From the NCBI GenBank assembly GCA_937958685.1, contig CALGNF010000060.1:1-11109 (forward strand): DNA of 11,109 nucleotides. Reading direction: 5' to 3'. This stretch comes from an uncultured Caryophanales bacterium (GTDB lineage: Bacteria; Bacillota_I; Bacilli_A; Izemoplasmatales; Hujiaoplasmataceae). The notes beneath the pieces were generated by a model. It saw only the letters and a list, made by a program, of their open reading frames with translations, did not search any database and was not told the origin of the DNA. A program made the position numbers and the translations under genes. This document shows positions 1 to 11,109 of the stretch, in pieces. Position 1 is the first letter of the stretch. Each line of letters opens with the position of its first letter.

Positions 1-110
1 GCTCATATCTCGTGAGGTTTTATGATTTGGAGGACACCTTGCTCGACGAGCAACTAGTCCTTCATGGCGAAGCCGCCAGCGACCCCTATGGCGAGCATGC
101 GGCCACTTTG
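1..110 (+). repeat. Direct repeat copy 1, at contig start
   Basis: Bases 1-110 match 748-857 with a single difference (A at 56, G at 803). They encode the first half of B-repeat 1. The first 55 bases are an exact match, and the window starts with this word. The offset is 747 bases, exactly 249 codons or four B-repeats. Identity stops abruptly at codon level: DIEGHTF here versus TIVGYAY in the other copy. Confidence 0.95.
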
Positions 111-2315
111 GATATTGAGGGCCACACCTTTACGGGCTGGTCCGAACCATTTGACCAGGTTGAGGGTGATCTGGTTCTCCATCCCGAATATGACATAAAC
201 AAGTACCTTGTGACCTTCTACAATTACGATGGCGCCATCCTCAAGACTGAAGTTGTCGAGCATGGAGCCGACGCCACGCCGCCCGCCGACCCATTTCGGG
301 AAGGCCATGAGTTTGACGGCTGGGTCGAATCGTTCTTCGATGTCTTCACGGACATCGACGTCCATGCCTCTTATACGCCAGTGACCTATACCGTGACCTA
401 TTACGACCGCGAATATGACATCATCTATGTCGAGCAAGTCGCCCATGGGGAGGCGGGAACGCCGCCTTCGGCACCCTCGCTCACGGGATACTTGTTCCTC
501 GGTTGGGACAAAAACGTTGATTCGATCACGAAAGACACCAATGTGCTTGCTTTGTATGAAATCATCACCTATCGCGTCGTTTTCCGGGATGCTTTGGGAT
601 CGGTATTCGATGTCCAGGATCTGCATCACGGGGATGACGCCTATGATCCGGGGACACCGGAAAAGCCCGGCTGGGATTTCCTCGGTTGGGACCAGAGCTA
701 TCTCGCTGTCACAGCGGACTTGAACATCTATCCGCTTTATGAGCAACGCTCATATCTCGTGAGGTTTTATGATTTGGAGGACACCTTGCTCGACGAGCAA
801 CTGGTCCTTCATGGCGAAGCCGCCAGCGACCCCTATGGCGAGCATGCGGCCACTTTGACGATCGTTGGTTATGCCTATCGCGGCTGGGACGGCGAACTTG
901 AGAACATCCAGCAAGCAAGCAACTTCCATCCGCAATACGAAATCCTCACCTATACTGTCGTGTTCGCGGATGACTCCGGTCATATCTTTGACATCCAGAC
1001 CATCGAGCACGGCGATGACGCGTATGCACCGCTAACACCTTCGCGCCTTGGTTACGCATTTCTTGACTGGGACACGGATTTCACCAATGTCACAGCCGAT
1101 TTGTGGGTCAGCGCCACTTATGAGATCCTGACTTACACGGTCGCCTTCTATGATATCGATCTCGAACTCATCGAGTCGCAGACTATCGATCATGGCGCAG
1201 CCGCCAGTGAGCCAGGTGTGCCTGATGTCACCGGCTATCACTTTGTCAGCTGGGACCAGGAATTCGCCAATGTCACCGGCGATATGGATATCTATGCCAC
1301 CTATGCTATCAATACGTATCAGGTGGTTTTCCATGACCATCAAGGCGCCATCCTGATGATCCAAACGATCGAGTATCTTCAGGATGCTTCGGCACCAGGA
1401 GACGTGTCGCGTACAGGCTACACTTTCACTGGCTGGGATGCCGTTTTCGAAGGCGTGACAGAGGATCTCTACATCTATCCCCTTTATACAATCAATACCT
1501 ACTCGGTTTTCTTTGATTCCAATGGCGGGACCGTGGTTTCGGCGATCCACGATGTGGAGCACGGATCAACGATTCTGCTGGATATCCCGACAAAACTTGG
1601 CTACAGATTCCTTGGCTGGTTCCTGGGAGAAACCATCAATGATGCGAAATTCTACGCCAATACACCGGTGACCGATGAACTATGGCTCTATGCCAGATGG
1701 GAATTGACATCATACGATGTCAGATTCCTTGATCATGATGACACGGTGCTCAGGCAGCTGCTTGTGCCGCACGGCTACAGCGCCATCGCGCCCCAAGACC
1801 CGTCGCGGCTTGGATATACGTTCGTTGGTTGGAGCGCGCTCTTCAACACCATCGTGATGGATACGGATATCTACGCTCTCTATGATCCGATCGAGTATCT
1901 GTTGGCGTTTGTGGAAAACGGCGGCGAGGACATGTCGGACATATGGGTTGCCTTTGAAGATCCACTCCCGACAATCGATGATCCGGTAAGGACGGGCTAT
2001 ACTTTCATGGGCTGGTATGAGGACATTTTCTTGACTGTCCCATTCACAACGACTGAGATGCCGCTTTATGGTTTGACGCTTTATGCCGACTGGGTGATCA
2101 ACCAGTACACCATCAGTTTTGCGGAAAACGGCGGCTCGGTTGTTGAAGATATCACTCAAGACTATGCCTCGGCGGTCAGTGAACCGGACGAACCGACCAG
2201 AACCGGCTATACCTTTGCCGGCTGGTATGCGGATTCCGACCTGGGAACACCCTATGTCTTTACCGTCATACCTGCGGAAGACATCACTGTCTATGCCAAA
2301 TGGATCATCAATGAA
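3..2315 (+). repeat. Tandem array of 12 B-repeats (repeats 1-12)
   Basis: Repeat boundaries, set at the conserved opening Tyr, are 204, 387, 570, 753, 951, 1134, 1317, 1500, 1713, 1896 and 2106. Two length classes occur. Repeats 2-4, 6-8 and 10 are 61 residues. They have the pattern YxVxFxD, then HGxxAxxP, GYxFxGWD, VTxDxxIYxxY. Repeats 11 and 12 are 70 residues, with ENGG in the first hairpin and GWYxD...MP...YAxW at the end. Repeats 1 and 5 are 66 residues with an insertion before the GY/GH motif. Repeat 9 (71 residues) is a hybrid with NGG and YARW. The InlB B-repeat has a ubiquitin-like beta-grasp fold, so this stretch should form a long rod or string of small domains. Confidence 0.9.
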
Positions 2316-5300
2316 TATGAAATTTCCTATTATGAAGTTGAGACGGGAACCATCTATGCTGGTGGTGGCAATGGCTTCAGTTTTGTGATCGAAGCCGACG
2401 GTTCAGTCTATGCCTTTGGCCGTAACGACTATGGTCAGCTTGGTGATGGAACACTCACCGAGCGCTGGAGCGCGGTTAACATCACCGATAAATTCACTTT
2501 GGATCCCGGCGAGAGAATCATCGTCATCAAAGGCGGTTATAATCATTCGATTGCCCTATCAAATCATGGCAATGTGTTCACCTTTGGTAGCAACGCATAC
2601 GGCCAATTGGGTAAATGCGCTTTGGACTACAGCAGCCTGCCGATGGACATCACCAGCAGGCTCAGTCTTAATCCCGGAGAGACAATCGTCGCGGTTGCTG
2701 CAAATACTTATTATTCAATAGCTTTATCCAGCGACGGCAATTTGTATGCTTGGGGATATAATCAATATGGGCAATTCGGGATAGGCACAACAGGCATTGC
2801 AGACTGTATACCACAAATCATAAGTGGGTATTTATTGCTTGAAGAAGGCGAAGACATTATCGCCTTTGCGGCCGGCGATAACCATCTGGTGGTGCTCACA
2901 TCCATGAACAGGGTGCTGTCGTCTGGCCAAAATCTCTACGGACAACTCGGGAACAATTCCACCACCGACAGCGATTCCTTCGTCGATATCTCCGCCGCGA
3001 TTGCTCTCGAACCCGAAGACAACCTCGCCGGCGTCAGCGCCGGAAGCCGTTTCTCGCTAGTCTATACCGAATCTGGCCGTGTCTTTGTCTGGGGCGCCAA
3101 TGACCACTCTCAGCTGGGCACGGGTGAATCCACTAGCGTGTCGCATTTGACACCGTATGAGATCACCGCCAATTTCAACCTGCAGTCAGGCGAAACATTT
3201 ATCAAGATCCTGACAGATTATCATAGCGCTCATGCCCTGACGACCAATCAGCGATTCTTTGTCTGGGGTTATGACGGAAACTGCTGCCTCGGGCTCGGAG
3301 ACTGTATTAACCAGCCGCTACCGACGCTGAACGAGCCAGATTATATACTGGAAGACAATGAGTACATTGTTGGCATTGGCAGAAACCGTGAGGTTATCTA
3401 TGTAATAACCTCTCATGGCAGAGTCTATTCTGCCGGCAGAGAACTGCATGGTTCGCTTGGTTATGAGGTCGAGGGCGATTTCGCTCCAGATTTTGGCTTG
3501 ATTCCGGGGTTGGGAACGTTCCTGCCGACGGATTCAACCAGTATCGTTTTCAATTCCGTTTTGGATTTACCCGAACCAGAGCGCGAGGGCCATACTTTCC
3601 TCGGCTGGTACAGCGATAGCCTGTTTTTGGTGCCGTTCACGGAAGTGACGATGCCAGCTTACGACTTTAACCTTTACGCCAGGTGGGAGATCAACCAATA
3701 TACGATCAGTTTCACAGAAAACGGTGGTTCCGATGTCGATGACATCACTCAAGACTATGGAACGCTCGTGACCGAACCGACATCGCCGACAAGAACGGCT
3801 TTCACCTTCATCGGCTGGTACGCGGATGAGGAGTTGACGATTCCCTATACCTTCTCGACGATGCCTGCGGAAAACATCACCCTTTATGCCAAATGGACAG
3901 ACATTCCCTATACGATCAGCTTTGTCGAAAACGGCGGCAGCGAGGTTGAGGACATCGTCGCCAACTACGGCGAATCCGTCAGCGAACCGGCCGAGCCGAC
4001 AAGAACCGGCTACACGTTTATCGACTGGTATGCGGATAGCGAACTGACGACTGTCTATGTCTTCACCACCATGCCGTTGGGCGGAAGAACGGTCTATGCG
4101 AAATGGGAAATCAATGAATATACCCTCAAGTTCATCAAGAATGTGGAGTATCTGGATCCGCAGTTTGCCGACGGAGTTTCACACAGTTTGCTATTGACAA
4201 CCGACGGGAGGCTCTATGCTGTCGGCAGCAACGCCTACGGCCAGCTGGGCGATGGCACGCTTGTCGCCAAAACGACCAAGATCGACATCACGGGTTTGCT
4301 GGGACTTGGCGAGACAGAGACAATCTCAAAGATCGCGGTTGCCAACGCCAGCAGTTATGTGCTGACATCCACGGGCCGGCTGCTGGTTGCCGGTTATAAT
4401 AACTCTGGCCAGCTGGGTACGGGAGATAAGACCAACAGGTCTTCCTTCACCGATATCACGGAGAACTTTACCCTTGACTCAGGCGAAACGATAACTGATA
4501 TCGCCTGTGGCGGGGAAACAGCGTTCGTCACCACCTCCGCCGGGAGGATCTTTGGCTTTGGCAGCAATGCCTATGGATCGGTCGGAGACGGCACTTCGGG
4601 GACCGATCGCACGCTTCCCGTCGACATCACCGGTAATTTCTCCCTTGGATCCGGGGAAACGATCACTGCGCTGCAAATCGGAGTTCAGCATGCATATGCG
4701 CTGACTTCGGCCGACCGGCTCTTCAGCTGGGGACGGAATGATTACGGTCAGGTGGGCATCGGAACGACTGTCAACCAGTTGTTACCTGTTGATATCACCG
4801 CCAATTTCCCCCTCGATACCGAAGATGAGATCGTCATGGTCGCAGCGGGATTCTATCACGGATACGCTCTGAGTGAAGCGGGCAGGGTCTTTTCTTGGGG
4901 TTACAATTATTACGGGATGCTTGGTATCAATTATGGAGGCTCGGGAAGCAACCGGTCTTTGCCGACCGAGATCACCAACGCTTTCTATCTGGAGAGCGAC
5001 GACAAGATCATCTATGTCACCGCTTCCGAATACAACGGCCAGGCGATTTCAAGTTCGGGAAGGATCTATTCCTGGGGTTACGGCAGTTACAGCGTCAACG
5101 CCAACGGCTTGACAACCGTCCAATATGCTCCGTATGAAATCACAGCCAATTTCAAATTGTTTAATGGAGAATCGCTCCTATCGATCAGCGGCTATGGCCA
5201 TTCGATGCATGCAATCACATCGATGGGTCGCGTGATCGTGTGGGGCTACGGCACTTCGGGGATGCGCTTTGATGGCATCACCTCCACGCTGACATATCCA

Positions 5301-8300
5301 ACGCACGTGATCATAACTGACAATACCTTGATCGATGAGGATATCTACGAATATGATCAGCCAATCGTCTATCCTGCCGATCCCACCAGAACCGGATTCA
5401 CTTTCGGCGGGTGGTATCAGGACAGCGGGTTCGTCACCGTCTTCAACGCGGCGAACATGCCGGCAGGGGATATCGACGCTTATGCCAAGTGGATTGCCAA
5501 CTCGAGGACGATCACGTTTGACAGCAAGGGTGGCAGCGCTGTGACGGCAATCACGAAGAATTATCAGGAAGCGGTGTCGCAGCCAGCAAATCCGACAAAG
5601 ACTGGCTATCTCTTCAAAGGCTGGTTCGAGGATGAAACCTACACAATTCCCTACAGGTTTGTTTTCATGGAAGATCGGAACATCACCTTGTATGCCAAAT
5701 GGGAAATCAACAACCACGATTTCCTGCTTTATGATTACCAAACCGAGATGGTCTTCATCAAAGTCGCACCCGGATGGAATCATACATTGGCTTTGGCTGA
5801 ATCAGGGCAATTGTTTGCTTGGGGCGGCAATACTTACGGGCAACTCGGAAACAACTCAACTTCGGCTTCCTATGTCCCCATCGACATCTCCGCGTATCTG
5901 CCGCTGGAAACGGGTGAGACGATCAGCGAGATCTTTGCGGGCGACAGCTGCAGCGCCGTGCTCACCTCTTTGGGAAGACTGTTTATCTGGGGTTACAATA
6001 GCAACGGCACAATCGGCGACGGCAGTTATGCCAATTACAAATCCACACCGCAGGACATCACCGCATATCTGATCCTGGCTGAGGCAGAAACCATCGAGCA
6101 GGTGCATCTAAACAGGACAGCCGTTCACGTCGTCACTTCAGCGGGAAGGGTGTTGGGCTGGGGCCATTCGGAAATGTCGGGCGCCAACGGCGAAAGAAGA
6201 CGCCCATATGATATTACTTCATACTTCAATTTTGTCGGCGATGAAACCATCATCTCCCTTGCCGGAGCGGATCGCTATATCATGGCGGTCACTTCCGAAG
6301 GCCGGATGTTTGGCTGGGGCTACGATGGTTCTTCCGGAGCTTTTGCCAATGGATCGGTGTATTACTATGCCACACCATATGATGTCTCCTCGGCGTTCAC
6401 CGCGGTCTTGGAGGAGGGTGAGACAATCATCAGTCTAAGCGCGGGATCGAACAACATGTATGCGATCACATCTTTGGGAAGACTTCTCGGCTGGGGCTAC
6501 AACGCCTATGGTGAATTGTGTGACGGCACGACGACCAAGCGTGACTATCCCATCGACGTCACCGGCTATCTGGGGCTGGAAAGCGGCGAGGAAATCCTTC
6601 ACATCAACGGTGGGGTTAATCACGCAATGCTCCTGACATCGTCAGGCAGGATCCTTTCCTGGGGACGGAACAATTATTACCAACTTGGCAACAAGACGAC
6701 CGTCAACTCCCTGATCCCTGTCGATGTCACCGCTAATATCCCGCTGGCCACCGGCGATGCCATCGCCATTGTCAGAGCGGCCAGGTATTCCGCTTTCATT
6801 TTGACCGAAGACGGCGCATTGATCCGCTTTGGCGATAACACCTCGGGTCTCCTTGGCGACAATTCGACAACGACAAGGCCGGATCCATTCAAACTGACCT
6901 TGGTTTCTTGGAAACTATATGAACGCTATCGTCTGGAATATGATGAAAGCTTGCCGTCGATAACCGATCCCACCAGATATGAGAACACTTTCGACGGTTG
7001 GTACGAGAACACCGCGCTCACGACTCCTTATACCAAGACGAACATGCCCAACTCGCAATTTGCCATCTATGGCAAGTGGATCGCGAACCAGTACACGATC
7101 AGCTTCGAGACCAACGGCGGCAATGCCATCACTGACCGGACCTTCGATTATGATGCCACCATCAGCATGCCAGCCAATCCAACCAAACAGGGATACTCGT
7201 TCGCCGGCTGGTTCACCGATGAGGCTTTGACCGAAGCCTTCACCCTGACGAAGATGCCCGAGTACAACTTCACCCTTTATGCCAAATGGACAATCAATGT
7301 CTATAACATCACCTATTATTACGACAATGAATCGATAACCTACACGCAAGTGTCCACGGGTGGTTACCACACGATCGCGCTGACGGAGACCGGGCAAGTC
7401 TTCACCTGGGGCTACAACGCCTATGGGCAACTGGGTGATGGGACCACATCAAGCAAGCAGATTCCGGTTGACATTACGGCCAACTTCTATCTTTATGATG
7501 GTGAAAAGATCATCACTGCCTACGCGCTTTACTCGCATTCGGTAGTCTTGACCGATCAGGGCAGGATCTTCACTTGGGGTTATAATACCCAAGGCCAGCT
7601 GGGCGACGGGACGACAACGCACAGAAACTTGCCAGTCGATATCACCGCGAACTTCGCCTTTGCAACCGGCGAAACCGCCACGACGATCTATAAAGGCAAT
7701 CAATCGGTGTTTGTGATCACCTCGCTCGACAAGATCTTCGCATTTGGTTCGAACAGCGAAGGGGTGCTTGGTTTCGGTGATTCGGTCAACCATCTCACGC
7801 CCGTGGAGATCACGAGCAAATTCAACCTGGCCTCGGGAGAGACGATGCTGCAGATTTCGGGTGGCAACCGCCACGTGATGGCGATCACAAGTGCCGGCAA
7901 AGTCTTTGCCTGGGGTTACAACTCGGGTACTGAATACGTCTTCGCAAGCTCCACGCCCTCAAATTCATTGGTTCCGCTAGACATCACCGGCAATCTCAAC
8001 TTGGAAAGCGGCGAGACGCTTACTTTCATCGCCGCCGGCAACGGCCAGAGCTATGCCTTGACTTCGCTCGGGAAACTACTCGCTTGGGGCTATGGTGAAC
8101 TTGGCGACGGCACCACGAATTACCGGACCTCACCAGTCGACCTCAGCATCTATTTTTCACTCGCCGAGGGCGAAACGATAACCAAAATCCAATCAGGCGA
8201 CGCCCACGTGCTGGCCTTGACTTCGACGGGCAGGATGTTCGCGTGGGGCAAGAACAGCGCCGGACAACTTGGCGATGGGACCACGACAAAACGCCTGTCA

Positions 8301-8681
8301 CCGGTGGACATCACTTCCCAGTTCACGCTTGCCGAAGGCGATAGTCTGACGACCCTTTTCCTTGGCTACACGATGAACACCAGTTTCGTGATGACCGACT
8401 CCGGGCAGCTTTATGCCTTTGGCTTGGCGCATTATGGCATCCTTGGCGACAACACGACAACCAACAAGTCCACGCCGGTCGCCATCAGCCACACGGCATT
8501 CAGCTATTTGCAGTCAAGCCAATTCGATTACCAGGAAGCCATCGTCCTAATAGATGATCCGGTGAAGAGTGGGTTTGGTTTTGTCGGCTGGTTTACGGAT
8601 CCGGCGCTCACCCAGGCATTCACCCTGACGAACATGCCGGCCAGTCATCTCAAACTCTACGCCAAATGGACTGCTGAATAG
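3..8681 (+). CDS. Giant B-repeat / RCC1-propeller protein, 5' partial (probable surface or secreted protein)
   Basis: The frame is open from the first complete codon at base 3 to the TAG at 8679-8681, so the true start, signal peptide and any N-terminal anchor lie outside the window. Residue numbers in this annotation count the GTG at 12 as 1 (residue = position/3 - 3). Residues 1-768 are 12 tandem InlB-type B-repeats (Flg_new / Listeria-Bacteroides repeat family) with the core GYxFxGW. Four seven-blade RCC1 arrays follow (about 786-1176, 1386-1773, 1921-2300, 2450-2833). Each is inserted into a further B-repeat, with two, one and one intact repeats between them. The protein ends in KLYAKWTAE after the last B-repeat; no LPxTG, membrane segment or charged tail is seen. 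Only eight cysteines occur, which fits an exported protein. In related proteins B-repeats act as spacers or adhesive modules, and RCC1 propellers bind proteins. An adhesin-like or cell-contact role is inference; the ligand is unknown. Confidence 0.93.
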   Translation, partial: SYLVRFYDLEDTLLDEQLVLHGEAASDPYGEHAATLDIEGHTFTGWSEPFDQVEGDLVLHPEYDINKYLVTFYNYDGAILKTEVVEHGADATPPADPFREGHEFDGWVESFFDVFTDIDVHASYTPVTYTVTYYDREYDIIYVEQVAHGEAGTPPSAPSLTGYLFLGWDKNVDSITKDTNVLALYEIITYRVVFRDALGSVFDVQDLHHGDDAYDPGTPEKPGWDFLGWDQSYLAVTADLNIYPLYEQRSYLVRFYDLEDTLLDEQLVLHGEAASDPYGEHAATLTIVGYAYRGWDGELENIQQASNFHPQYEILTYTVVFADDSGHIFDIQTIEHGDDAYAPLTPSRLGYAFLDWDTDFTNVTADLWVSATYEILTYTVAFYDIDLELIESQTIDHGAAASEPGVPDVTGYHFVSWDQEFANVTGDMDIYATYAINTYQVVFHDHQGAILMIQTIEYLQDASAPGDVSRTGYTFTGWDAVFEGVTEDLYIYPLYTINTYSVFFDSNGGTVVSAIHDVEHGSTILLDIPTKLGYRFLGWFLGETINDAKFYANTPVTDELWLYARWELTSYDVRFLDHDDTVLRQLLVPHGYSAIAPQDPSRLGYTFVGWSALFNTIVMDTDIYALYDPIEYLLAFVENGGEDMSDIWVAFEDPLPTIDDPVRTGYTFMGWYEDIFLTVPFTTTEMPLYGLTLYADWVINQYTISFAENGGSVVEDITQDYASAVSEPDEPTRTGYTFAGWYADSDLGTPYVFTVIPAEDITVYAKWIINEYEISYYEVETGTIYAGGGNGFSFVIEADGSVYAFGRNDYGQLGDGTLTERWSAVNITDKFTLDPGERIIVIKGGYNHSIALSNHGNVFTFGSNAYGQLGKCALDYSSLPMDITSRLSLNPGETIVAVAANTYYSIALSSDGNLYAWGYNQYGQFGIGTTGIADCIPQIISGYLLLEEGEDIIAFAAGDNHLVVLTSMNRVLSSGQNLYGQLGNNSTTDSDSFVDISAAIALEPEDNLAGVSAGSRFSLVYTESGRVFVWGANDHSQLGTGESTSVSHLTPYEITANFNLQSGETFIKILTDYHSAHALTTNQRFFVWGYDGNCCLGLGDCINQPLPTLNEPDYILEDNEYIVGIGRNREVIYVITSHGRVYSAGRELHGSLGYEVEGDFAPDFGLIPGLGTFLPTDSTSIVFNSVLDLPEPEREGHTFLGWYSDSLFLVPFTEVTMPAYDFNLYARWEINQYTISFTENGGSDVDDITQDYGTLVTEPTSPTRTAFTFIGWYADEELTIPYTFSTMPAENITLYAKWTDIPYTISFVENGGSEVEDIVANYGESVSEPAEPTRTGYTFIDWYADSELTTVYVFTTMPLGGRTVYAKWEINEYTLKFIKNVEYLDPQFADGVSHSLLLTTDGRLYAVGSNAYGQLGDGTLVAKTTKIDITGLLGLGETETISKIAVANASSYVLTSTGRLLVAGYNNSGQLGTGDKTNRSSFTDITENFTLDSGETITDIACGGETAFVTTSAGRIFGFGSNAYGSVGDGTSGTDRTLPVDITGNFSLGSGETITALQIGVQHAYALTSADRLFSWGRNDYGQVGIGTTVNQLLPVDITANFPLDTEDEIVMVAAGFYHGYALSEAGRVFSWGYNYYGMLGINYGGSGSNRSLPTEITNAFYLESDDKIIYVTASEYNGQAISSSGRIYSWGYGSYSVNANGLTTVQYAPYEITANFKLFNGESLLSISGYGHSMHAITSMGRVIVWGYGTSGMRFDGITSTLTYPTHVIITDNTLIDEDIYEYDQPIVYPADPTRTGFTFGGWYQDSGFVTVFNAANMPAGDIDAYAKWIANSRTITFDSKGGSAVTAITKNYQEAVSQPANPTKTGYLFKGWFEDETYTIPYRFVFMEDRNITLYAKWEINNHDFLLYDYQTEMVFIKVAPGWNHTLALAESGQLFAWGGNTYGQLGNNSTSASYVPIDISAYLPLETGETISEIFAGDSCSAVLTSLGRLFIWGYNSNGTIGDGSYANYKSTPQDITAYLILAEAETIEQVHLNRTAVHVVTSAGRVLGWGHSEMSGANGERRRPYDITSYFNFVGDETIISLAGADRYIMAVTSEGRMFGWGYDGSSGAFANGSVYYYATPYDVSSAFTAVLEEGETIISLSAGSNNMYAITSLGRLLGWGYNAYGELCDGTTTKRDYPIDVTGYLGLESGEEILHINGGVNHAMLLTSSGRILSWGRNNYYQLGNKTTVNSLIPVDVTANIPLATGDAIAIVRAARYSAFILTEDGALIRFGDNTSGLLGDNSTTTRPDPFKLTLVSWKLYERYRLEYDESLPSITDPTRYENTFDGWYENTALTTPYTKTNMPNSQFAIYGKWIANQYTISFETNGGNAITDRTFDYDATISMPANPTKQGYSFAGWFTDEALTEAFTLTKMPEYNFTLYAKWTINVYNITYYYDNESITYTQVSTGGYHTIALTETGQVFTWGYNAYGQLGDGTTSSKQIPVDITANFYLYDGEKIITAYALYSHSVVLTDQGRIFTWGYNTQGQLGDGTTTHRNLPVDITANFAFATGETATTIYKGNQSVFVITSLDKIFAFGSNSEGVLGFGDSVNHLTPVEITSKFNLASGETMLQISGGNRHVMAITSAGKVFAWGYNSGTEYVFASSTPSNSLVPLDITGNLNLESGETLTFIAAGNGQSYALTSLGKLLAWGYGELGDGTTNYRTSPVDLSIYFSLAEGETITKIQSGDAHVLALTSTGRMFAWGKNSAGQLGDGTTTKRLSPVDITSQFTLAEGDSLTTLFLGYTMNTSFVMTDSGQLYAFGLAHYGILGDNTTTNKSTPVAISHTAFSYLQSSQFDYQEAIVLIDDPVKSGFGFVGWFTDPALTQAFTLTNMPASHLKLYAKWTAE
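748..857 (+). repeat. Direct repeat copy 2, inside B-repeats 4/5
   Basis: This is the second copy of the 110-base repeat at the window start. It begins at the last residues of B-repeat 4 and covers the first half of B-repeat 5. Other B-repeats in the gene have clearly diverged in DNA. Near-identity of only this pair therefore points to recent duplication or gene conversion, or to an assembly loop. Confidence 0.95.
2367..3539 (+). repeat. RCC1 propeller 1 (seven blades), nested in split B-repeat 13
   Basis: Seven RCC1-like repeats of 52-58 residues start at 2367, 2538, 2706, 2877, 3045, 3219 and 3387 (residues 786, 843, 899, 956, 1012, 1070, 1126). The core pattern is ALTxxGRVFxWGxNxYGQLG, then xITxxFxLxxGE. 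The host B-repeat is split: its first strand YEISYY starts at 2316, and it resumes about 3540 with SIVFNSV, then GHTFLGWY and YARWEINQ, ending at 3698. This is the most degenerate of the four propellers. Blades 4 and 7 lack the WG (SSG, SAG), and blade 7 lacks the usual ITxxFxL part. Five of the protein's eight cysteines are here (869, 932, 1091, 1092, 1098). Confidence 0.88.
3699..4118 (+). repeat. B-repeats 14 and 15 (spacer between propellers 1 and 2)
   Basis: Two complete 70-residue repeats start at 3699 and 3909. Both are of the ENGG type: YTISFxENGGSxV, then SEPxxPTRT, a GYTF/AFTF-GWYAD core and YAKW. They resemble repeats 12, 17 and 19 closely in protein sequence. Repeat 15 has a DW in place of GW (FIDWYAD). 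Confidence 0.92.
4167..5330 (+). repeat. RCC1 propeller 2 (seven blades), nested in split B-repeat 16
   Basis: Blades start at 4167, 4344, 4512, 4683, 4851, 5028 and 5193 (residues 1386, 1445, 1501, 1558, 1614, 1673, 1728). Most carry GR(L/V/I)(F/Y)SWGYN or SNAYGQLGDGT and the PxDITxxFxL segment. Blade 6 has lost the GQLG signature (GSYSVNANG), and blade 7 also lacks it. The host B-repeat begins with YTLKFIKN at 4119. It resumes about 5331 with IYEYDQPIVYPADPTRTG, then FTFGGWY and YAKW, ending at 5504. Confidence 0.9.
5505..5714 (+). repeat. B-repeat 17 (spacer between propellers 2 and 3)
   Basis: A single intact 70-residue repeat of the NGG type. It opens RTITFDSKGGSAV instead of the usual Tyr, has GYLFKGWF as its core and ends LYAKWEINN. 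It links the second half of split repeat 16 to the first strand of split repeat 18. Confidence 0.92.
5772..6914 (+). repeat. RCC1 propeller 3 (seven blades), nested in split B-repeat 18
   Basis: Blades start at 5772, 5943, 6111, 6267, 6447, 6615 and 6783 (residues 1921, 1978, 2034, 2086, 2146, 2202, 2258). Six of the seven have an intact WG; blade 7 has FG. Blade 3 is short (52 residues) and lacks the GQLGDGT turn (WGHSEMSGANGE). Blade 4 is long (60 residues) with a Tyr-rich loop (VYYYATP). The host B-repeat opens with HDFLLYDYQ at 5715. It resumes about 6912 with KLYERYRLEYDESLPSITDP, then ENTFDGWY and YGKW, ending at 7091. Confidence 0.9.
7092..7301 (+). repeat. B-repeat 19 (spacer between propellers 3 and 4)
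   Basis: One intact 70-residue repeat: YTISFETNGGNAI, a GYSFAGWF core, then MPEYNFTLYAKWTINV. It is of the same class as repeats 12, 14, 15 and 17. Confidence 0.92.
7359..8513 (+). repeat. RCC1 propeller 4 (seven blades), nested in split B-repeat 20
   Basis: Blades start at 7359, 7530, 7698, 7866, 8040, 8199 and 8367 (residues 2450, 2507, 2563, 2619, 2677, 2730, 2786). This propeller is closest to the RCC1 consensus: blades 1, 2 and 6 have WGxN followed by GQLGDGTT and PVDIT. Blade 5 is short (53 residues) because part of the WGYN-GQLG hairpin is deleted (WGYGELGDGTT). The host B-repeat starts YNITYYYDN at 7302. It resumes about 8514 with SSQFDYQEAIVLIDDPVKSG, then FGFVGWF and LYAKW, and ends the protein at 8678. 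Confidence 0.9.
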
Positions 8682-8694
8682 CAAGACATATTAT

Positions 8695-8723
8695 AAGCGG
8701 GCTAGCCGGCCCGCTTTTCTTTT
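8695..8723 (+). terminator. Rho-independent terminator after the giant gene
   Basis: A perfect 8-base-pair stem AAGCGGGC / GCCCGCTT (8695-8702 with 8709-8716) has a six-base loop TAGCCG. It runs into TTTTCTTTT (8715-8723). It starts 13 bases after the TAG stop at 8681, so transcription of the giant gene should end here and the cupin gene needs its own promoter. Confidence 0.9.
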
Positions 8724-8792: not shown

Positions 8793-9137
8793 ATGATAGG
8801 ACACATCAACGACATCCCCGCGCGGCAGCTGCTTTCCGATTCCGTCAAGAATGCGGCCATGAAGGTGCTTGTTTCACCGGAAACCGGTTGGAGCGACCAC
8901 GTGATGCGCCTGGTGGAGCTCGGATGCGAAGGTTATTCGCCCGAACACAGCCATCCCTGGCCGCACATCAACTTCGTGGTCGCCGGCGAAGGCGAACTGA
9001 TGATCGAAGGGACGATTCACCCTTTGATGGCGGGAACATACGCCTTCATCCCCGCAAATACCCTGCATCAATTTCGCAATCCCAAATCCGCCAAACTCAG
9101 TTTCATCTGCATCGTCCCCAAGGAAGGCCATCAGTGA
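8793..9137 (+). CDS. Small single-domain cupin protein
   Basis: This 114-residue protein is about the minimum size for one cupin_2 beta-barrel, with no other domain, signal peptide or membrane segment, so it is probably cytoplasmic. Cupin motif 1 is seen as HSHPWPHINFVVAGEG: His52, His54 and His58, with His where many cupins have Glu. Motif 2 is PANTLHQFRN, with His92 and Asn96. These residues would bind a single divalent metal in the barrel. Cupins of this type act as small enzymes (isomerases, dioxygenases) or as sensory or binding barrels, and the sequence does not show which. The start is set by the AGGAGG at 8780. The methyltransferase gene follows 38 bases after the TGA, in the same direction and with no terminator between, so the two are probably co-transcribed. 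They may act on the same small molecule; this is inferred only from adjacency. Confidence 0.9.
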   Translation: MIGHINDIPARQLLSDSVKNAAMKVLVSPETGWSDHVMRLVELGCEGYSPEHSHPWPHINFVVAGEGELMIEGTIHPLMAGTYAFIPANTLHQFRNPKSAKLSFICIVPKEGHQ

Positions 9138-9175: not shown

Positions 9176-9892
9176 GTGAAACTATACAACGATTTTGCCA
9201 GCCACTATGATTTCATCTTTCCCGTCAACGAAAGGACTCTGGGTTTTCTTGAGGAGGAATTGCCAAGCGGGACGGTCGTCGATCTTGGTTGCGCAACCGG
9301 CGGGTATGCCATCGCTCTCGCTGGACGCGGTTATGTCGTCGAAGGCCTTGATCTTGACGCGCACATGCTTGAGATTGCCACTGGCAAAAGCCGGCAGTCG
9401 GAGATGAAAGTGACGTTTCAACTAAAGGATATCGCCCATTTTGCGGCCACGAGCCGTTATGATGGTATTTACTCGATCGGCAACACCATCGTGCATCTCC
9501 CGGATAAAGCCGCGGTCAAAGACTTGCTCGCCAGAATTTATGACGCTTTGATTCCTCATGGCAAGGCCGTGGTGCAGATCATCAACTATGATCGCTTTAT
9601 CGGTCTGGATCAGGCGTCGCTTCCGACCATCGAGCGCGAGGGACGGCGTTTCACGCGTTTCTACAGGCGCAAATCCGGGATGATGCTCTTTGAGACGGAA
9701 CTGAATCACCTCGAGGAAACCTATCGGGCTGTGACGCCACTTTTGCCGCTGCTATCCTTTGAACTAGCAAGCCTGTTTCAGGAGGCCGGCTTCGTCGACA
9801 TCAGATCATATGGAGGTTTTTCCCGTGAGCCATATGAAAGCGGCAAGTCGCAGCATTTCGTGATCGTGGCCGGGAAGCCAACGCAGAACTAG
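9176..9892 (+). CDS. Class I SAM-dependent methyltransferase
   Basis: This 238-residue protein is the usual size for a small Rossmann-fold methyltransferase. Motif I, which binds S-adenosylmethionine, is VVDLGCATG at residues 34-42. The acidic end of strand 2 is GLDLD (57-61), and a motif-IV-like stretch YDGIYSIGNTIVHLPD is at 95-110. The N-terminus YNDFASHYDFIF is typical of the Methyltransf_25/11 group. The C-terminal part (about 150-220) is a beta-rich region with many charged residues that would form the substrate pocket. The start is a GTG, the only in-frame start after the TGA at 9167. The acceptor is unknown; relatives methylate small molecules, and nothing here suggests DNA or rRNA. 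It is the second gene of a likely two-gene unit with the cupin, and no clear terminator follows it. Confidence 0.9.
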   Translation: MKLYNDFASHYDFIFPVNERTLGFLEEELPSGTVVDLGCATGGYAIALAGRGYVVEGLDLDAHMLEIATGKSRQSEMKVTFQLKDIAHFAATSRYDGIYSIGNTIVHLPDKAAVKDLLARIYDALIPHGKAVVQIINYDRFIGLDQASLPTIEREGRRFTRFYRRKSGMMLFETELNHLEETYRAVTPLLPLLSFELASLFQEAGFVDIRSYGGFSREPYESGKSQHFVIVAGKPTQN

Positions 9893-9956: not shown

Positions 9957-11058
9957 ATGCCTCACACAGGAAGGACAGGATCAAAGATCCGCATTGATAT
10001 GGACAAACGCAAGATGCTGGCCAACAAGTTGCGCCAGCAGCCACCACAGAGACCAAACGTCGTGATCGGTCTCGACGGCTTCGTCGACGAGATCATCCAC
10101 GTCGTCGACAAGCGCCTTGATGCGCAAACCTTCGTCCGTCTGGACAATATCGCCGATTTTGCACGGCGCATCGACCGCGCGAGCGGTCTGTCGACAAACA
10201 TCGAACTCTATCCGACCCAAAGGAAGATCGGCGGGAACGGACCGATCATGTGCAACGCCCTTGCCCAACATGAAGGAAACTACACCTATATCGGTTCTTT
10301 GGGCATGCCGGCGATCGACGGTGTCTTTCAGGAACTGGCTGCCAAGGCCGAACTGATCACGCTGGCGGCAAGCGGGCATACCGACGCGCTCGAGTTCGAC
10401 GATGGCAAGATTCTCTTCGGAAAAACCGCCTCTTTGAACGACATCACCTATGAGAGACTGATCGAGGTCGTGGGCAAAGACCGTTTTGTGGGGCTGTTGC
10501 AGACGGCTGACCTGTTTGCGACCGTCAACTGGTCCTTGATCCCGAAGATGACGGAGATTTGGCGGAACTTGATTGCCAATATCATTCCTTTGCTGAAACC
10601 GCGACCAGTGCGCCCGGTCATGTTCATCGATCTGGCCGACCCCGAGAAACGCACACCAAAGGAAATCGCCGAAGCGCTGTCTCTGCTGAAGGAATTCCGC
10701 AGCTACTTCTTTGTCGTCCTTGGCTTCAACAAAAAAGAAGCGTATGATGTGGGACATGTCCTGCAACTCTTTCCCGCTGATGAGTTGGCGCGTTATGAGG
10801 TGACCCTCGAGGAACTCAACCAAGCCTTGATCCGGAAACTGGCACTCGATGCGATCGTCATCCATCCGGTCGATAGATCCTGTTGTGTCGTTGACGGCAA
10901 ATTTTTCCATGAGCTGGGACCATTCGTCAAGAAACCCAAGCTCACCACCGGCGCCGGCGACAATTTCAATGCCGGCTTCGTCCTCGGCCTGTTTCTGGGC
11001 TTGACCCCCGACGAGGCTTTGCTTGTCGGTATGGCCACAAGCGGCTTCTATGTCAGAA
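9957..11058 (+). CDS. PfkB/ribokinase-family carbohydrate kinase, 3' truncated by adapter
   Basis: The N-terminal part reads GLDGFVDEI (residues 38-46 from the ATG at 9957), where Asp residues would contact a sugar. GGN at 92-94 opens the substrate-loop region. The second PfkB signature, TTGAGDNFNAGF, holds the likely catalytic base Asp335 and the anion hole. The expected reaction is ATP-dependent phosphorylation of a sugar or nucleoside hydroxyl; the substrate cannot be told. Genomic coding ends at about Arg367 (11057). The apparent last residues KIGRAQV and the stop at 11079-11081 come from the adapter, so some C-terminal residues (perhaps a few tens) are missing. The start is uncertain. 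ATG 9957 lies at the predicted transcription start with no ribosome site, while ATG 9999 (MDKRKML) follows an AGGAAGGACAGGA stretch 18 or more bases away. About 350 residues is longer than ribokinase (about 310). Confidence 0.85.
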
Positions 11059-11109
11059 AGATCGGAAGAGCACAAGTCTGAACTCCAGTCACCGAATACG
11101 AACTCGTAT
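11059..11109 (+). other. Illumina adapter and index sequence (non-genomic contamination)
   Basis: From 11059 the sequence starts AGATCGGAAGAGC and continues as the standard TruSeq read-1 3' adapter to 11092, with one mismatch (A for C at 11075). Next comes an 8-base index-like word, CGAATACG (11093-11100). AACTCGTAT follows, which matches the ATCTCGTAT that follows the index with one mismatch. Any protein end or reverse-strand start here is artificial. Confidence 0.97.

Follow-up and report, generated by a model that had tools for sequence, protein, structure and literature searches.

Four B-repeats of one very large, surface-type bacterial protein appear to be interrupted between their first and second strands, each by a complete seven-bladed RCC1 propeller. 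The protein is encoded in the stretch of DNA analyzed here (the window), the 11,109 nucleotides of contig CALGNF010000060.1 in assembly GCA_937958685.1, from an uncultured Caryophanales bacterium (Izemoplasmatales; Hujiaoplasmataceae) whose kin are the wall-less Izemoplasma group. Its open reading frame (ORF) of 2892 residues lacks the 5' end and runs from N-terminal InlB-type B-repeats (the Flg_new family, PF09479) into four units, or cassettes, in which a lone B-repeat first strand, an RCC1 array and the remainder of a B-repeat follow one another. We consider it probable that the two flanks of each array belong to one host repeat and that the propeller is inserted within it, a reading that takes in the further steps of strand pairing, projection from a rod and ligand binding by the propeller heads.

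The split of the B-repeat

In Pfam, the ORF matches PF25390 at 852.7 bits (cut-off 150), PF00415 at 525.2 (21.7) and PF13540 at 464.4 (22), and PF09479 at 598 bits (cut-off 27) in 18 stretches. Every array holds seven RCC1 repeats (28 in all), as a first-pass annotation made from the letters of this DNA had counted, and an intact B-repeat stands ahead of all four. The span given there for the four units, 2316..8678, also agrees with the parts found here, 2316 lying inside the strand segment that starts at 2307 (INEY..) and 8678 being the last base before the stop codon. The parts, all on the + strand, are as follows.

3..8681, +, ORF of 2892 residues, 5' end missing; N-terminal B-repeats, then four split-repeat/propeller cassettes
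3..2303, +, N-terminal stalk of about 12 B-repeats by eye, mostly of a divergent type, the first cut by the window edge
2307..2333, +, unit 1 lone first strand, INEYEISYY, residues 769-777
2343..3473, +, unit 1 propeller, seven RCC1 repeats, residues 781-1157
3534..3686, +, unit 1 B-repeat remainder, residues 1178-1228, profile positions 16-67
3696..4106, +, two intact B-repeats between units 1 and 2, residues 1232-1298 and 1302-1368
4110..4133, +, unit 2 lone first strand, INEYTLKF, residues 1370-1377
4158..5315, +, unit 2 propeller, seven RCC1 repeats, residues 1386-1771
5322..5492, +, unit 2 B-repeat remainder, residues 1774-1830, profile positions 11-67 (with the window-only model, residues 1781-1830, positions 18-67)
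5502..5702, +, intact B-repeat between units 2 and 3, residues 1834-1900
5706..5732, +, unit 3 lone first strand, degenerate, INNHDFLLY, residues 1902-1910
5745..6899, +, unit 3 propeller, seven RCC1 repeats, residues 1915-2299
6933..7079, +, unit 3 B-repeat remainder, residues 2311-2359, profile positions 19-67
7089..7289, +, intact B-repeat between units 3 and 4, residues 2363-2429
7293..7319, +, unit 4 lone first strand, INVYNITYY, residues 2431-2439
7335..8495, +, unit 4 propeller, seven RCC1 repeats, residues 2445-2831
8511..8669, +, unit 4 B-repeat remainder, residues 2837-2889, profile positions 15-67; the protein stops three residues on

The downstream flanks were compared with a hidden Markov model (HMM) of 67 positions, built from seven intact B-repeats of the window. 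The post-array repeats of units 1 to 4 start at model positions 23, 18, 20 and 18, and all extend to position 67, whereas the seven repeats behind the model start at position 1 or 2. The same model finds seven divergent N-terminal repeats as well, five of them from position 1 or 2 and two partly matched, from 12 and 20; within the N-terminal stalk it matches 10 of the approximately 12 repeats (residues 67-767). Set against an intact repeat of the same protein, moreover, every half aligns from position 14-20 through 67 with a score that 0 of 1000 shuffles reached. Thus, all four post-array repeats lack both first strand and ENGG turn, and the proposal that one insertion site, between strands 1 and 2, was used four times is borne out.

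A segment like the missing strand lies on the other side of the array. By position, a lone strand stands ahead of all four arrays, behind an intact B-repeat that ends in KW. Its sequence is clear in unit 2 (0 of 1000 shuffles as good) and in unit 1 (5 of 1000); the lone strands do less well than the halves in this test because they are shorter. Against a strand profile, units 1, 2 and 4 score 14-20 and unit 3 (HDFLLY) scores -11.7. In the closest relative found, locus L112, the position of the unit 3 strand reads INQYNF..Y, which is nearer to the canonical form. The earlier statement that a lone strand precedes each array therefore stands by position for all four and by sequence for units 1 and 2; unit 4 is intermediate, and unit 3 is degenerate.

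AlphaFold models of units 4 and 2 (predicted local distance difference test, pLDDT, 93) are closed, UVR8-like propellers flanked by two strands, and UVR8 is matched over the whole ring by both. The expected closure of the blades at seven is thus seen in the two units modeled. The flanking strands fit a single interrupted hairpin, and from these models strand 1 would pair with strand 2 across the propeller.

Conservation in relatives

The split layout is a family trait, conserved in many relatives. Two protein searches were made, the first represented by the best 120 of 7935 matches (7985 candidates scored) and the second, for long proteins, by its best 120, for a total of 241 proteins including the window. 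The 120 proteins listed from the first search together with the window hold 126 arrays of at least four repeats, seven being the count in 90 of these. Both a B-repeat and an array of at least five repeats occur in 135 of the 241. Under a strict rule, in which the half must start at profile position 12 or later and by which the window itself counts three of its four units, at least one split cassette is present in 105 of these 135, at least two in 30 and at least four in 3. The split Flg_new matches around RCC1 arrays that the first-pass annotation proposed to look for are, accordingly, common among the proteins retrieved. One protein (P0123) has five split cassettes and two (P0126 and P0121) have four each; P0125, assigned by its source to Acholeplasma laidlawii, has two.

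Genomes tell a similar story. The set comprised 90 genomes from the order of G001, the Tenericutes metagenome-assembled genome behind locus L003, and included G003 (zrk2) and G004 (Izimaplasma ZiA1). The unit 4 cassette is matched at E 1e-30 or better in 29 of the 90. For the sugar kinase gene of the window, 30 of these 90 genomes contain a match, at 53-66% identity, which puts the window close to that order. L112 shares 66.7% identity over 1086 aligned positions and carries units 3 and 4 in the same order, interrupted by the contig end. The complete chromosome of Mycoplasmatota bacterium zrk2 (G003) has two split cassettes within one frame of 1568 residues.

If the lone strand belongs to the B-repeat half that follows the array, the two should occur together. 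Among the proteins of the first search, arrays before a B-half are mostly preceded by an IN.Y.I.YY-type strand, whereas C-terminal arrays mostly continue from KW without one. For a formal comparison, with genome loci added, we took arrays of six to eight repeats that have the end of a B-repeat at most 45 residues upstream, counted as split those with the start of any B-repeat match at most 60 residues downstream, and merged identical linkers. This gave 71 split and 17 C-terminal arrays; 11 others were left out, 10 from Bifidobacterium and one from P0018, where the strand is present but no B-repeat match follows. A lone strand of at least 4 bits precedes 60 of the 71 arrays with a following B-repeat versus 2 of the 17 C-terminal ones (Fisher 2e-8, to be read as a guide), and one of at least 6 bits precedes 53 versus 2. 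Random stretches within RCC1 repeats reached 6 bits in 0 of 1464 cases.

Insertion or juxtaposition

The same observations could be read differently. The propellers could sit between domains as beads on a string, in which case the upstream strand would serve as a linker or add one more edge strand to the propeller, and what lies downstream would be a shortened B-repeat that folds without strand 1. Several results fit this alternative or weigh in other ways against insertion. First, the lone strands are short and individually weak: 61 of 1000 shuffles are as good for unit 4 and 298 of 1000 for unit 3, the latter thus being unsupported alone. At the strictest level of 16.5 bits, which 95% of intact repeats attain, only 24 of the 71 split arrays have the strand versus 1 of the 17 (p 0.03), and since the rows are mutually related and some C-terminal arrays may be truncated records, the p-values of this comparison serve only as a guide. 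For a few of the 71, the match behind the array begins earlier than profile position 12 (4 of 77 in the first array survey), and 2 of the 17 come from outside this group (L010, and an L011 array at a contig end). Second, by the strict rule the best locus is split in only 14 of the 29 matched genomes, with one best locus judged per genome and two of these loci (L091 and L101) lacking an array of at least five repeats in a frame of at least 150. Third, in the models of units 4 and 2, the mean pLDDT falls to 76-86 in ten-residue blocks at the junctions, some UVR8 alignments begin at model residue 8 or 79 and so touch the strand, and a fold search (VIA) of both models was filled by propellers and is uninformative on the B-repeat part. 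Fourth, corrected covariation between strand 1 and the half-repeat in 102 split units (those with a lone strand of at least 2 bits) correlates with that of intact repeats at 0.06, a value reached by 30 of 200 shuffles; the uncorrected signal in intact repeats is dominated by one column, probably a subfamily marker. Finally, the ligand-binding role proposed for the propellers is argued by analogy.

Set against these points, the strand goes with a following B-repeat and is largely missing where there is none. The two flanks jointly cover the domain except for the turn region, and in the unit 2 model, confidently predicted strands of almost the same length lie on either side. In another host family, described below, the flanks of one array match positions 1-26 and 28-84 of an 84-position domain. 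We therefore regard juxtaposed, independently folding domains as unlikely, and insertion into a split repeat as the better account.

Origin of the four propellers

The first-pass annotation suggested that the cassette had spread by duplication or as a mobile element. A recent event of this kind within the gene is attractive at first sight: one insertion site is used four times, no two propellers of the protein are more alike than those of units 3 and 4 (40% identity), and the N-terminal stalk does hold a duplication, a 140-base direct repeat at window positions 1-140 and 748-887 (89% identity, period 747 bases). But the propellers share just 27-40% identity pairwise, and the best match of three of the four lies in another protein. 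In a FastTree phylogeny of 173 of 193 seven-repeat propellers (near copies removed), the four need four separate placements, although units 3 and 4 do fall in a supported set of eight rows. The window contains no inverted repeats of at least 24 bases, and L112 already has units 3 and 4 in their present order. Recent duplication or mobility is thus disfavored, to the point that we hold it very improbable. Together, the low mutual identity and the separate placements make the cassette look, on sequence comparison, of long standing in the family. On the same tree, the Bifidobacterium propellers form one supported group.

Two proteins whose second propeller lies near units 3 and 4 on the tree (P0142 and P0159) begin with a short start segment followed by glycine-rich, possibly collagen-like text, and the start of the window protein may be similar. 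The contig begins inside the 140-base stalk repeat, so that the assembly may have broken on this repeat and the true N-terminus is missing.

That the cassettes are an artefact or chimera of assembly is scarcely credible: the contig does begin within a repeat and end in adapter-like sequence, but an independent genome contig (L112) has the same two cassettes, which rejects the idea for units 3 and 4, and the complete chromosome of G003, with its two split cassettes in one frame, rejects it for the design, as does the split in the 105 of 135 two-domain proteins.

Propellers in other host domains

B-repeats are not the only small domains that seem to be opened by RCC1 propellers. The clear case, judged by profile matches, is P0185 (4641 residues), in which two arrays would lie inside split IPT/TIG domains: positions 8-26 and 1-26 of the 84-position TIG profile are matched upstream and 32-84 and 28-84 downstream, all above the Pfam cut-off. 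In this protein, a TIG-start pattern stands ahead of six of seven seven-repeat arrays, and it precedes 18 of 675 arrays of at least six repeats in all, one of which (L010) is false, lying inside a B-repeat.

The RCC1 proteins of Bifidobacterium are a suggestive instance only. There, a B-repeat stands ahead of the arrays; all five B-repeat matches in L011 are full length, and in some other loci the match starts at profile position 14-28, the first strand being present by eye in L019. In the Bifidobacterium loci read, no B-half closely follows the arrays. Instead, the propellers of L011, L012, L019, L020 and L078 are flanked by what appear to be the two parts of an IPT/TIG domain. In L019, TIG positions 25-84 of 84 are matched after the array at 16.9 bits, under the 20.9 cut-off of Pfam, and of nine short Bifidobacterium flank pieces compared with Pfam, three gave TIG below cut-off (E 0.06-0.09), one matched an unrelated family and the other five had no match.

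A third host is found in P0178 (1846 residues). The protein has an intact immunoglobulin (Ig)-like domain of its own, and the flanks of units 2 and 3 can be aligned with residues 3-19 and 27/33-78 of this domain, at a score that 0 of 1000 shuffles reached; PF16403 is matched by the downstream part, and the upstream piece given, that of unit 2, has no Pfam match. These two propellers probably sit inside split Ig-like domains of the PF16403 type. In P0155 and P0176, the host-type domains between propellers look intact by eye. Thus, small host repeats are opened by propellers repeatedly, though not in every RCC1 surface protein, and because TIG and PF16403 domains are both Ig-like, the three host families represent two folds.

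We incline, with some reserve, to a broader idea, in which bacterial surface rods generally use RCC1 propellers as heads that plug into a small host repeat, at one of its early hairpins or loops. This would have happened in at least three host families, which between them have two unrelated folds: B-repeats in Acholeplasma/Izemoplasma-like bacteria, IPT/TIG domains in P0185 and probably Bifidobacterium, and PF16403-type domains in P0178. The host repeat would then act as a socket that fixes the orientation of the propeller and keeps the stalk continuous.

Proposed architecture

In the window protein, a chain of InlB-type B-repeats would form the backbone. In each of four of these repeats, strand 1 would leave the small domain, the chain would run once around a closed seven-bladed RCC1 propeller that fills the gap, and it would return as strand 2, so that both flanks complete the host repeat and the propeller stands on a two-stranded neck. 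It is plausible that the propellers project sideways from the rod in this arrangement.

How the protein is held at the cell surface can be suggested from its relatives. A loose lipobox pattern occurs in 88 of 120 M-starting proteins that have both domains (a count made with no control run). As relatives with complete N-termini are thus mostly lipoprotein-like, the window protein, whose own N-terminus lies outside the window, is likely lipid-anchored. Its C-terminal end (..LKLYAKWTAE) lacks the combination of LPxTG, hydrophobic stretch and positive tail. A lipid-anchored B-repeat stalk could hold the propellers off the membrane as ligand-binding heads, for adhesion or capture. Across 1350 blades, W27, G28, N30, G33, L35, G36, P46, I49 and T50 hardly vary (0.8 bits or less), and positions 12, 13, 29 and 31 are the most variable (3.7-3.8 bits). 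We take positions 12 and 13 to be the GWRHT positions on the interaction face of UVR8. Such a variable face on a fixed frame would suit ligand binding.

Relation to known proteins

Serial combination of Flg_new and RCC1 domains is not new. The RCC1 surface proteins of honeybee-gut Bifidobacterium are described as having a Flg_new repeat with each RCC1 domain, an average of seven repeats per domain and two to four domains per protein, and a surface location was proposed for them (Ellegaard 2015, PMC4449606). The window protein resembles them in its Flg_new repeats, its arrays of about seven RCC1 repeats and its several domains, and no split is described in section 10 of that paper (PMC4449606). 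It differs in that the Bifidobacterium loci have a B-repeat before the array, no half closely after it and TIG-like halves around the propeller, and in that it ends without LPxTG. In the mollicute Hepatoplasma, a protein with an RCC1-like predicted seven-bladed propeller and Ig-like folds was discussed among genes possibly acting in host-bacterial interaction; in the portion of that source seen, the propeller is at the N-terminus, with four Ig folds, and no insertion is described (PMC10928387).

The individual parts are familiar as well. The window repeats match the family of the InlB B-repeat (PF09479; solved structure 2y5p, sequence match E 3e-5), but four copies differ from it in being interrupted after strand 1 by approximately 390 residues of propeller. 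Relative to UVR8/RCC1-like propellers (4dnu, 8gqe and 1a12), the window protein is a surface-type bacterial repeat protein, and nothing here is evidence of ultraviolet-B or Ran functions. Insertion of a propeller into another domain also has a precedent in prolyl oligopeptidase, where it lies within the hydrolase domain. There, however, the host is an enzyme and the propeller gates the active site, whereas the hosts in the window are small repeats, several per protein.

No account of propellers set within split B-repeats or split TIG domains turned up in the full-text literature searched, which is weak evidence of novelty, as most subscription journals lie outside its coverage; a word search of PMC8397711 and PMC7761423 gave no match. 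Of the earlier remark that the arrangement is without described precedent, the part on B-repeats and RCC1 propellers in series falls to the Bifidobacterium report, and the part on the split insertion holds within the literature searched. The split B-repeat that hosts a propeller is apparently an undescribed, widespread variant of a known architecture.

Flanking sequence

A terminator-like hairpin follows the stop codon directly.

8695..8716, +, terminator-like hairpin, then TTCTTTT; one found versus 0.6 expected by shuffling

Three genes lie further downstream, for a cupin-like protein (8793-9137), an S-adenosylmethionine-dependent methyltransferase-like protein (9176-9892) and a PfkB-like sugar kinase (9957-11060). 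Their NCBIfam matches are all under the curated cut-offs, and they seem to have no connection with the surface protein. At its 3' end (11059-11109), the contig resembles an adapter with an index, presumably of the Illumina TruSeq type. The reading frame of the kinase extends into this sequence, and the final kinase residues are therefore artificial.

Implications

An insertion of this kind would explain how very long bacterial surface proteins can bear bulky propeller heads without breaking the stalk. It would also give annotators a reason for the half B-repeats and half TIG domains that lie beside RCC1 arrays. The pairing of a host hairpin with a closed ring would amount to a natural socket-and-plug scaffold, which is testable and could be used in protein engineering. 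Most interesting to us is that the arrangement appears to recur in other host families, of another fold.
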